A stretch of DNA of 64,000 nucleotides from Amycolatopsis orientalis DSM 40040 = KCTC 9412. Its GTDB lineage: Bacteria > Actinomycetota > Actinomycetes > Mycobacteriales > Pseudonocardiaceae. The number at the start of each line of letters is the position of its first letter. Position 1 is the first letter of the stretch. A program made the translations under genes and the position numbers. Location: contig NZ_ASJB01000099.1 of the NCBI RefSeq assembly GCF_000478275.1, positions 186,001 through 250,000 on the forward strand, written 5' to 3'. The notes beneath the pieces were generated by a model. It was not told where the DNA came from. It was given only the letters and a program-made list of their open reading frames with translations, and made no database searches. This document shows, in pieces, positions 35,286 through 38,042 of this stretch.

Positions 35286-36488
35286 GTGGTTGGCGCAAAA
35301 AGTCCGCCCGTCGGCACCCCCGCCGGGATGCGGAAGATCAATCAGCGCGCCGTGCTGGACCTCCTGCGCCGCAGCGGCCCCGCCACCCGGCCGCAGGTCG
35401 CCAAGGACACCGGTCTTTCGAAACCCACGGTGAGCCAAGCGTTACTGGCCCTCGAAGCGGCCGGTCTCGCCAGGGCGACCGGGCACACCTCGACCGGGAC
35501 CGGCCGGTCCGCCGTCCTCTACGAAGCGGATCCCACGGCCGGTTACGTCCTCGGTGTCGACATCGGACGCGAGCACCTCCGCGTCGCCGTTTCGGACCTC
35601 GGCCACACCGTCGTCGCCCGCCGTGACGAGCGGAACACCTCGCGTTCGGGCACCGCGCTCGTCAGCGCCGTGGGCGCGCTCGCCGCGGCGACGGTCCGCG
35701 AAGCGGGGCTGAGCCAGGCGGACATCGTCGTGCGCGTCCTCGGCTCGCCCGGGGTCGCCGACCCGGCCAAACGCTGCTTCCGGCACGCGCCGAACCTGCC
35801 CGGCTGGGGCAAGGCGGGCCTGCTCGACGAACTCGAAGCCGTCCTCGGCCCGGACCTCATGGTGGAGAACGACGCGAACCTCACCGCCGTCGGCGAATGG
35901 GAACGCGGTGCCGCGCGCGGCGCGTCCGTGTTCGGCTGCATCACCATCGGCACCGGTGTCGGCATGGGCGTGATGGTCAACGGCGAGGTCTTCCGCGGCG
36001 CGACGGGCGCGGCGGGCGAAATCGGCTACCTCCCGTACGGCCAGTCGCACGCGGGAAGCGACGGCGAGGACGCTCCCCCGGTCCGCGGCCATCTCGAAGA
36101 GGCGACGGCGGCGCAGTCCGTGGTCCGCGGCGCCCGCGAACTCGGCCTGGGCACGGCGAAATCGGCCCGCGAAGTGTTCCGCCTCGCCCGCGACGGCGAC
36201 GAACTCGCCCTGCGCGCGGTCGAAGCCGAAGCGGACAGGCTGGCCTACACCGTGGCGTCGGTGGCCGCGGTGATCGACCCCGAACTGATCGTGCTCGGCG
36301 GCGGTATCGGCACCGCGGCCGATCTGCTGCTCGACCCGATCGACCGCGCGCTGCGCTCGTTCACCCCGCTCGTCCCCTCCGTCGTCCAGGGCGAACTGGG
36401 CGACGACGGGGTGCTGACCGGCGCGATCAGCGTCGGGCTGCGCGCCGCCGAGGGCTTGGTCTTCGAACGGAAGGTCGGCGCGGCCTAG
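35286..36488 (+). CDS. ROK-family transcriptional regulator
   Basis: 400-aa ROK protein with an N-terminal MarR-like winged helix ([40 protein letters not shown]) and a sugar kinase-like ROK domain ([51 protein letters not shown]). The CxCGxxGCxE zinc motif of active ROK kinases/NagC is absent. AGGAGG at 35272-35277, 8 bases before GTG 35286, fixes the start. A dre-like site upstream suggests control by aminosugar supply. It overlaps the convergent FMN-protein gene by 4 bp. Confidence 0.87.
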
Positions 36489-36952
36489 CGGTCAGGCCGC
36501 CGCCACGCCCTGCCGCCGGCACTGATCCGCCACGGCGTCAGCCTCAGCACGGTGATGTCCGGATCCAGTGGATCTTCGCCGCCCATGATCCTCGGGTCGA
36601 AACCCAGCGGCTCCGGTGTTTCCTCGGCCAACCGCCACAGATGCCGCCGCGTTTCCTCGTCGTCGGCGTAACCGGCACCGCATTCGGCGACGGCGACCTC
36701 GTGCGCCGGGTCCCAGTACGAACACGAGGCGAACGGCGTCCGCGCGAGATGCGCCTTCTTCAGCGGCGTCGGCCGGGTGAACAGGTGCCCGACGAGGTCG
36801 CCGTCCCGCTGTTCCCAGATCGGGTGCACCACCCTCGACCTCGGCCGCCCTCGCCGGTCGACCGTCGCGAGCGTGCACCAGACGACGCGATGCGCGACGC
36901 GGACGAACTCCGCCATCAGCTCCACCGGCGGCGTGCTAGATTCCACAACCAT
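36485..36952 (-). CDS. Pyridoxamine 5'-phosphate oxidase-like FMN/F420-binding protein
   Basis: 155-aa split-barrel protein of the PNPOx-like flavin/F420-binding superfamily (FVRVAHRVVWCTLATVDRRG; RSRVVHPIWEQRDGDLVGHL; SYWDPAHEVAVAEC). Activity may be an F420H2- or FMN-dependent reductase or a flavin sensor. The ATG at 36952 was chosen because a -10-like TAGGAT (36966-36961 on the minus strand) lies 8 bases upstream, giving a leaderless mRNA. A shorter form could start at 36916. Its start codon is inside the palindrome shared with the divergent MarR gene. Confidence 0.8.
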   Translation of the reverse strand: MVVESSTPPVELMAEFVRVAHRVVWCTLATVDRRGRPRSRVVHPIWEQRDGDLVGHLFTRPTPLKKAHLARTPFASCSYWDPAHEVAVAECGAGYADDEETRRHLWRLAEETPEPLGFDPRIMGGEDPLDPDITVLRLTPWRISAGGRAWRRPDR

Positions 36953-36960
36953 GGTTGTGG
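36943..36960. promoter_or_regulatory. 18-bp MarR operator spanning both divergent start codons
   Basis: CCACAACCATGGTTGTGG is a perfect 18-bp palindrome whose centre contains the ATG codons of both divergent genes (36951-36953 plus, 36952-36950 minus). -10-like hexamers lie symmetrically outside it: TAGATT 36937-36942 for the plus gene and TAGGAT 36966-36961 for the minus gene. Both transcripts would be leaderless and both blocked by one bound MarR dimer. Confidence 0.7.
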
Positions 36961-37433
36961 ATCCTACGCCGTCGAGTCTCGACCTGTCACTGGTCTCGCT
37001 GTTCGCCGGCTGGGCGATGAGCGGGGAGATCCAGCGGCGCCTGACCGCCGACGGACTCGGCGGGACCCGGTTCAACGACGGTGTCGTGTTCCAGCATGTG
37101 CTCGCGGGACCGCTCTCGATCTCCGCACTGGCCGAACGGATGGGCGTGACCCAGCAGGCGGCGTCGAAGGCGGTCGCCGATCTGGAAGGCCGGGGACTGC
37201 TGCGGCGCGAGCCGGACCCCGCCGACGCGCGGACCCGGCTGCTGCACCTGACCGAAACGGCCGAACGGGCCGTCAAGGCGGCACGAAAGCACCGAACGGC
37301 GCTGGAAAAGGAACTCATCACGGAATTCGGCGCGGAACGCGTCGCGGACGCGAAAGCGTTGCTGGCCGGGATCATCGGCCGCTATGGCGACACGGAGGCG
37401 ATCCGCGGCCGCCGGATCCGCCCGCCGGTATGA
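36951..37433 (+). CDS. MarR family regulator
   Basis: 160-aa MarR-type winged-helix regulator. The recognition helix region is GPLSISALAERMGVTQQAAS followed by KAVADLEGRGLLRREPDPAD and the basic wing DARTRLLHLTE. ATG 36951 lies within the 18-bp operator palindrome and 8 bases after TAGATT, so the mRNA is probably leaderless and autorepressed. The divergent PNPOx-like gene is the likely target. Confidence 0.86.
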   Translation: MVVDPTPSSLDLSLVSLFAGWAMSGEIQRRLTADGLGGTRFNDGVVFQHVLAGPLSISALAERMGVTQQAASKAVADLEGRGLLRREPDPADARTRLLHLTETAERAVKAARKHRTALEKELITEFGAERVADAKALLAGIIGRYGDTEAIRGRRIRPPV

Positions 37434-37983: not shown

Positions 37984-38017
37984 GACGATCGTCCTAGAGT
38001 TGTCCAGGACGATCGTC
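37984..38017. promoter_or_regulatory. Tandem TetR operators GACGATCGTC
   Basis: Two copies of the palindrome GACGATCGTC, 37984-37993 and 38008-38017, with centres 24 bp apart, lie between the divergent thioesterase and TetR genes. The right copy is extended to AGGACGATCGTCCT (38006-38019). The ~2-turn spacing suits cooperative binding of two TetR dimers. Confidence 0.7.
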
Positions 38018-38042
38018 CTAGTCAAGGGCTATGCTCGGGGAC

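Follow-up and report, generated by a model that had tools for sequence, protein, structure and literature searches.

The palindrome at positions 36943 to 36960 of the window (the whole 64-kb stretch of DNA that was analyzed) is very probably an autoregulatory MarR operator placed over the start codons of two leaderless genes that face each other. What the sequence itself shows is the anatomy of the site, its conservation, the association between operator and regulator, and the fact that the promoter boxes are under constraint. If this reading is correct, a segment of about 50 bp accommodates a pair of promoters with their transcription starts and start codons, a single operator, and the opening codons of both proteins. 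The locus would thus be an unusually compact genetic switch, in which a repressor site appears to coincide with the joint start of two opposed genes.

The palindrome, CCACAACCATGGTTGTGG, is perfect over 18 bp and holds an ATG in each direction (36951-36953 on the plus strand and 36952-36950 on the minus strand), which confirms what a sequence-only reading of this DNA had noticed. No other match with three or fewer mismatches occurs in the window (shuffle mean, 0.02). The start codons of the two genes, which encode a MarR-family regulator and a PPOX-type protein, have CATG in common and overlap by 2 nt. TAGATT on the plus strand and TAGGAT on the minus strand are each separated from their own ATG by 8 nt, and the coordinates bear out the earlier reading on this point. 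Its proposal that the operator encodes Met-Val-Val at the head of both proteins also holds, in that both open reading frames (ORFs) are open and begin with M-V-V. With the flanks included, the inverted repeat consists of 15-nt arms (36937-36951 and 36952-36966) that are 87% complementary. Chance is far from accounting for the palindrome: the 9.06-Mb genome contains its exact 14-mer core a single time, and all 48 loci described below have the same 16-bp core.

The symmetric design that the earlier reading had described survived in part. Its 16-bp core is invariant, but the outer arms are kept as TANNNT boxes and not as a palindrome. A 30-bp operator that includes the outer arms found no support: the 10-bp left and right arms do not covary, and 1,235 of 2,000 random re-pairings matched at least as well. 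The conserved operator is predicted to be the inner 16 bp, flanked by outer arms that are TANNNT boxes (Table 1).

Table 1. Predicted features of the divergent MarR-PPOX locus, in window coordinates
Feature	Position	Strand	Remarks
Conserved operator core CACAACCATGGTTGTG	36944..36959	none	Centre between 36951 and 36952; identical in 48/48 loci, 0 Fitch changes
MarR-family regulator MVVDPTPSSLDLSL...	36951..37433	+	160 aa; predicted leaderless; start codon within operator
PPOX / FMN-split-barrel-type protein MVVESSTPPVEL...	36485..36952	-	155 aa; predicted leaderless; start codon within operator
-10 box TAGATT, MarR promoter	36937..36942	+	Within PPOX coding sequence; TANNNT in 42/48 loci
TGC, extended -10 of MarR promoter	36934..36936	+	TGn in 38/48 loci
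-10 box TAGGAT, PPOX promoter	36961..36966	-	Within MarR codons 4-6; TANNNT in 48/48 loci
-35 box GTGACA, PPOX promoter	36985..36990	-	From promoter scan; 18-nt spacer; MarR codons 12-14 (Leu-Ser-Leu)

The regulator passes the curated Pfam cutoffs of both MarR_2 (50.2 bits; cutoff, 27) and MarR (42.2 bits; cutoff, 24.6), and it matched no curated NCBIfam model at a score above the cutoff of that model. On the evidence of family profile and predicted fold, the product of the divergent gene is a putative PPOX/FMN-binding split-barrel protein. It scored 23.1 bits with PNPOx_N, under the curated cutoff of 28.1; the same profile was matched at an E value of ≤1e-3 by 13 of the 14 aligned members. 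Its predicted structure (pLDDT, 85.3; pTM, 0.83) gave 132 matches to PDB folds at an E value of ≤0.001, and PPOX-type folds stood at the top among the best 50 listed (best E value, 9.4e-8). In this model, the operator-encoded residues 2 to 4 lie within a strand (mean pLDDT of residues 1 to 10, 92). A search against PDB sequences returned no match at an E value of ≤0.1. Assignment to the F420-dependent Rv1155 subfamily (TIGR03618) was rejected at 29.4 bits, against a curated cutoff of 79.05.

At its far end, the PPOX ORF on the minus strand meets a convergent ORF on the plus strand, called ROK-like by its look, which ends at 36488. The two stop codons overlap in CTAG (36485-36488), so the PPOX gene overlaps a neighbor by 2 nt at both ends. 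CTAA or CTAG is found at the end of the PPOX gene in many relatives as well.

Of 80 genomes of the genus (Amycolatopsis, judging from named relatives), 44, counting the source genome, contain a close homologue of the MarR protein (E value of ≤1e-25). Close relatives were also found in Nocardia jejuensis, in three Planobispora species, and in Actinomadura latina. Searching an order-level sample of 397 genomes added 1 further genome outside the genus, and a profile search of a phylum-level sample of 396 genomes yielded 5 beside the source genome, 3 of which (L126 to L128) lack the operator. The exact core lies near a MarR homologue at 53 distinct loci. At 48 of these, both frames are open from the palindrome ATGs, and the 5 without both starts on the core were excluded from that set. 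The 48 loci include our own, were told apart by a 450-nt stretch (duplicates were removed before counting), and have named members in Amycolatopsis, Nocardia, Planobispora, and Actinomadura; since they come mostly from one genus, counts over them are not independent.

Changes were inferred on one tree of both proteins, the Amycolatopsis part of which is shallow, and on this tree only 20 of 151 columns around the centre are changeless. They are the 16 columns of the core, invariant at all 48 loci, and 4 positions of the -10 boxes: the final T on the left and all three fixed letters (T, A, and T) on the right. Flanking sites average 5.8 changes on the left and 8.3 on the right, the latter figure being inflated by register indels, and third codon positions average 6.5 changes in MarR and 7.0 in PPOX. 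Third codon positions with zero changes also occur elsewhere (6 of 40 in MarR and 2 of 32 in PPOX). The invariant core dictates GTT as codon 2 of both genes at every one of the 48 loci; elsewhere in the two genes, GTT makes up 7 of 537 and 7 of 617 Val codons.

Leaderless actinobacterial genes are described as having a TANNNT -10 box close before the start codon, with C preferred before and T after the starting base, in the available portions of studies on Mycobacterium tuberculosis (PMC3898074) and Streptomyces avermitilis (PMC8780764). In the source genome, TANNNT before 568 predicted ATG starts peaks at spacings of 6, 7, and 8 nt (35, 10, and 6 genes, respectively) and is found in at most one gene per spacing from 9 to 15 nt. 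The 8-nt spacing used on both sides of our palindrome is the rarest of the three peaks and falls within the range that leaderless actinobacterial genes use. In the right -10 box, T, A, and T have undergone no change, and the three N positions have changed 5, 5, and 4 times. The six exceptions to TANNNT in the left box are two CAGACT and four loci of a single clade within the same genus (L109, L111, L113, and L114). Scores for a Shine-Dalgarno sequence are low on the MarR side, where the best 6-mer score against AGGAGG is at most 2 of 6 at 41 of the 48 loci, 3 at four loci, and 4 at three.

The clade of four loci is informative for another reason. There, the left -10 box has been lost, and seven codons downstream MarR has an in-frame ATG that is preceded by TANNNT at a distance of 6 nt; the palindrome ATG itself has stayed in the MarR frame. 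When we collected in-frame ATG, GTG, and TTG codons over codons 4 to 120 of both genes at the 48 loci, only those 4 of 620 had TANNNT at 5 to 9 nt upstream. It appears that the MarR start and its -10 box shifted together in this clade, a joint shift that matches the expectation for leaderless genes. The earlier reading's claim of two leaderless genes thus draws support from TANNNT at all 48 loci on the right and at 42 on the left and from an apparent joint move of the -10 box and start in 4 of 4 cases. On the PPOX side of the four loci, we found neither a strong -35 box nor TGn. Their sequence TACTTTA or TACCTTA can be read as a -10 box on both strands (TACTTT for MarR and TAAAGT for PPOX); in this clade, a common -10 element may have replaced the facing promoters.

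The second promoter element on the PPOX side also seems to have left its mark on MarR codons. The Ser codon at the PPOX -35 box is TCA or TCT at 25 of 25 in-register loci; where an indel has shifted this codon out of register, it is TCC or TCG at 23 of 23 loci and TCA or TCT at none. Farther along the MarR gene, TCA and TCT together account for 12 of 175 Ser codons. A register that is 6 nt shorter is present at 19 loci, 18 of which carry the extended -10 motif TGn; none of the other 29 loci carry it. Register and codon class each change nine times on the tree, although the nine register switches may be overcounted on a single protein tree with a shallow Amycolatopsis part. Within the limits of this tree, promoters of the -35 type and of the extended -10 type seem to have replaced each other repeatedly. 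Both types have precedents in the available text of the studies cited above: the extended TGN form is the most active in M. tuberculosis (PMC3898074), and a -35 type, BTGACN, is given for S. avermitilis (PMC8780764).

The palindrome accompanies one type of regulator among the homologues. We compared 101 distinct homologues from the fetched loci, omitting L003, in which the helix is not covered, and sorted them by the presence of Gln-Gln (QQ) at positions 68 and 69 in the region of the recognition helix. The core (14-mer, three or fewer mismatches) was found between -160 and +40 relative to the start in all 58 homologues with QQ versus none of the 43 without it, a comparison biased toward association by four loci (L133 to L136) that were found via the operator itself. 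In distant members, the core is exact or has one to three mismatches, occurs in one or two copies, and is placed upstream of the MarR start instead of covering it (Kribbella L029 and L032, Pseudonocardia L035, and L115, L122, L125, and L134). The sequence is therefore kept where it has no role as a MarR start codon. Among 300 shuffles of each upstream region, none gave an equally good match, except for L034 (three mismatches), for which 2 of 300 did. The 16-bp core also fits the 16- to 20-bp palindromic operator next to its own gene that the accessible part of PMC5401885 gives for the MarR family. Together, the association with QQ and its persistence away from the MarR start codon support the earlier interpretation of the palindrome as a putative MarR operator.

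Inspection by eye of L029 (Kribbella capetownensis) showed a PPOX frame open from the palindrome ATG (MVVQKEF...) with TAACCT 6 nt before it; the MarR start is farther off, behind a second operator copy with one mismatch. A larger regulon in the source genome was considered and dropped: there is no second exact site, and sites with two mismatches number three, against two for a control pattern. Across the class, 11 exact 14-mer sites occur in 9 of 394 genomes (control pattern, 2 genomes). Five of these sites adjoin QQ MarR homologues; near the other six, in four genomes of one family, no MarR homologue was detected by tblastn (E value of ≤1e-3) within the fetched sequence of up to 3 kb. All six (L129, L130, L131, L132, L137, and L138, in genomes G916, G941, G857, and G1002) read ACAACCATGGTTGT and continue with CG each time, and these copies may belong to a short palindromic repeat.

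We postulate the following mechanism. Two sigma-70-type promoters would face each other across one operator, with the MarR promoter (extended -10, TGCTAGATT) in the first PPOX codons and the PPOX promoter, with its -35 and -10 boxes, in the first 14 MarR codons. Each transcript would begin at the A of its own ATG or no more than about 3 nt from it; if both start at their own ATG, the RNAs lack a leader and overlap by a few bases at most. A MarR dimer bound centrally would span the two start points and extend to both -10 boxes. This position over both start points suggests repression, and autorepression is assumed from it: the bound dimer would switch off both genes together, repressing its own gene along with PPOX, until an effector releases it. 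The leaderless starts, the repression, and the competition considered next are steps that we infer.

Opening either promoter would largely involve the same base pairs, so that two polymerases should not be able to melt the DNA simultaneously. It is possible, if somewhat doubtful, that the locus works as a one-bubble switch, in which the repressor and two opposed polymerases compete for a single site, the central CATG region that both promoters would melt, and each firing yields mRNA for either repressor or enzyme but never for both. If it does, the ratio of PPOX to repressor would reflect a stochastic choice of direction set by the relative strengths of the promoter boxes. Evolution seems to have retuned these strengths several times by means of the 6-nt shift.

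Other readings of the palindrome were weighed against this one. The site could be a MarR operator while at least one of the genes is leadered, with transcription starting farther upstream and PPOX using TAGGAT (AGGA) as a Shine-Dalgarno sequence. On the PPOX side, the best 6-mer indeed scores 4 or 5 of 6 against AGGAGG at 39 of 48 loci, and AGG falls within the right hexamer at 39 of 48. However, TANNNT is kept in all 9 right hexamers that lack AGG, the scores on the MarR side are low (at most 2 of 6 at 41 of 48 loci), and the exchange between -35 and extended -10 elements on the PPOX side suits a promoter and not a ribosome site. A transcription start well upstream also fits poorly with the TANNNT peak at 6 to 8 nt in the source genome, and we consider a leadered arrangement unlikely.

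We give even less credence, as very improbable, to the idea that transcripts start upstream and that the ATG is held in a hairpin loop controlling translation. The strand folds into an 8-pair central stem with CATG in the loop (z of -5.0 with single-stranded DNA parameters), but every such palindrome folds; moreover, the sequence itself, beyond its pairing, is invariant at 48 of 48 loci, the core lies upstream of the MarR start and not on it in distant relatives, and the left arm would be missing from a transcript that starts at the ATG. Third codon positions fixed on the rare GTT in both genes, and a palindrome that is retained in relatives without a MarR start on it, argue against a Met-Val-Val start that is important in both proteins with only incidental symmetry. 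This last explanation, which could appeal to the strand position of PPOX residues 2 to 4, strikes us as scarcely credible. A MarR operator on two leaderless starts is the reading that we retain.

Three alternatives to the palindrome ATGs were set aside as start codons. A later PPOX start at 36916, which the earlier reading had raised as an alternative that would count against it, was rejected, as an ATG is present there at 1 of 48 loci, our own only. An upstream in-frame GTG of MarR at 36933 was likewise discarded; an in-frame GTG or ATG occupies that place at only 12 of 48 loci. A GTG start at the third codon is available at 48 of 48 loci on both strands, but it is explained by the palindrome, and it lies 14 nt from the -10 box, a spacing at which none of the 568 ATG-start genes has TANNNT. 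Speaking against our assignment of the starts, other in-frame ATG, GTG, or TTG codons occur in PPOX codons 4 to 16 at 29 of 48 loci, in varying places (none at 19 of 48), and in MarR codons 4 to 13 at 13 of 48.

The arrangement appears to be rare in the source genome. With our own simple gene caller, we found 263 divergent neighbor pairs in 1.6 of the 9.06 Mb. Both sides show a leaderless-type start no farther than 90 nt from the called start in 14 of the 263 pairs, and at this locus alone do two such starts lie within 10 nt of each other. Without the promoter condition, called starts lie no more than 10 nt apart in 14 pairs, and some in-frame start pair is that close in 40. The 16 other candidate places inspected lack the symmetry, with at most 9 of 15 symmetric positions versus 13 of 15 here.

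Each ingredient is already known: MarR autorepressors that are encoded divergently, leaderless genes, and promoters that exclude each other. In Corynebacterium glutamicum, the MarR gene crtR is divergent from its target, CrtR binding between both genes represses both, and the crtR transcript is said to have been reported as leaderless (PMC5401885, available part). Our MarR gene is likewise divergent from its neighbor. Unlike our locus, where the operator encloses two overlapping start codons, the CrtR system has an intergenic region, and crtE transcription starts 114 nt before its start codon, according to the same text. Bidirectional promoters of Escherichia coli have one common -10 element, with starts most commonly 18 bp and also 10 or 23 bp apart (PMC12825309, in the portion available); in contrast, two separate -10 boxes with 18 bp between them face each other here over one start point. 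Membership in this class, defined by one -10 element read on both strands, was therefore rejected for our locus, while the L109-type clade, with TACTTTA readable on both strands, may have moved toward such a shared -10 element. A divergent leaderless pair that includes a regulator, Rv1129c/prpD, has been shown (PMC3898074; PMC8780764); the available text of these two papers contains no case of two leaderless start codons overlapping inside one operator. A fusion of these elements on two overlapping start codons, constant over several genera, was not found among the titles and abstract openings that our searches of open-licence papers listed.

If our reading is right, the locus offers a natural minimal system in which to study how repressor and polymerase, or two polymerases, exclude each other, how leaderless mRNAs are translated, and how overlapping codes evolve. 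Relatives whose elements have drifted apart would serve as ready-made variants. It also yields a testable operator and specificity motif for a MarR subfamily.

Elsewhere in the window, GACGATCGTCCTAG occurs in two copies at 37984-38021, with starts 24 nt apart. The pair sits between a thioesterase-like ORF on the minus strand and a TetR-like ORF on the plus strand (from 38031), both named by look, and is reminiscent of a standard two-operator TetR divergon.
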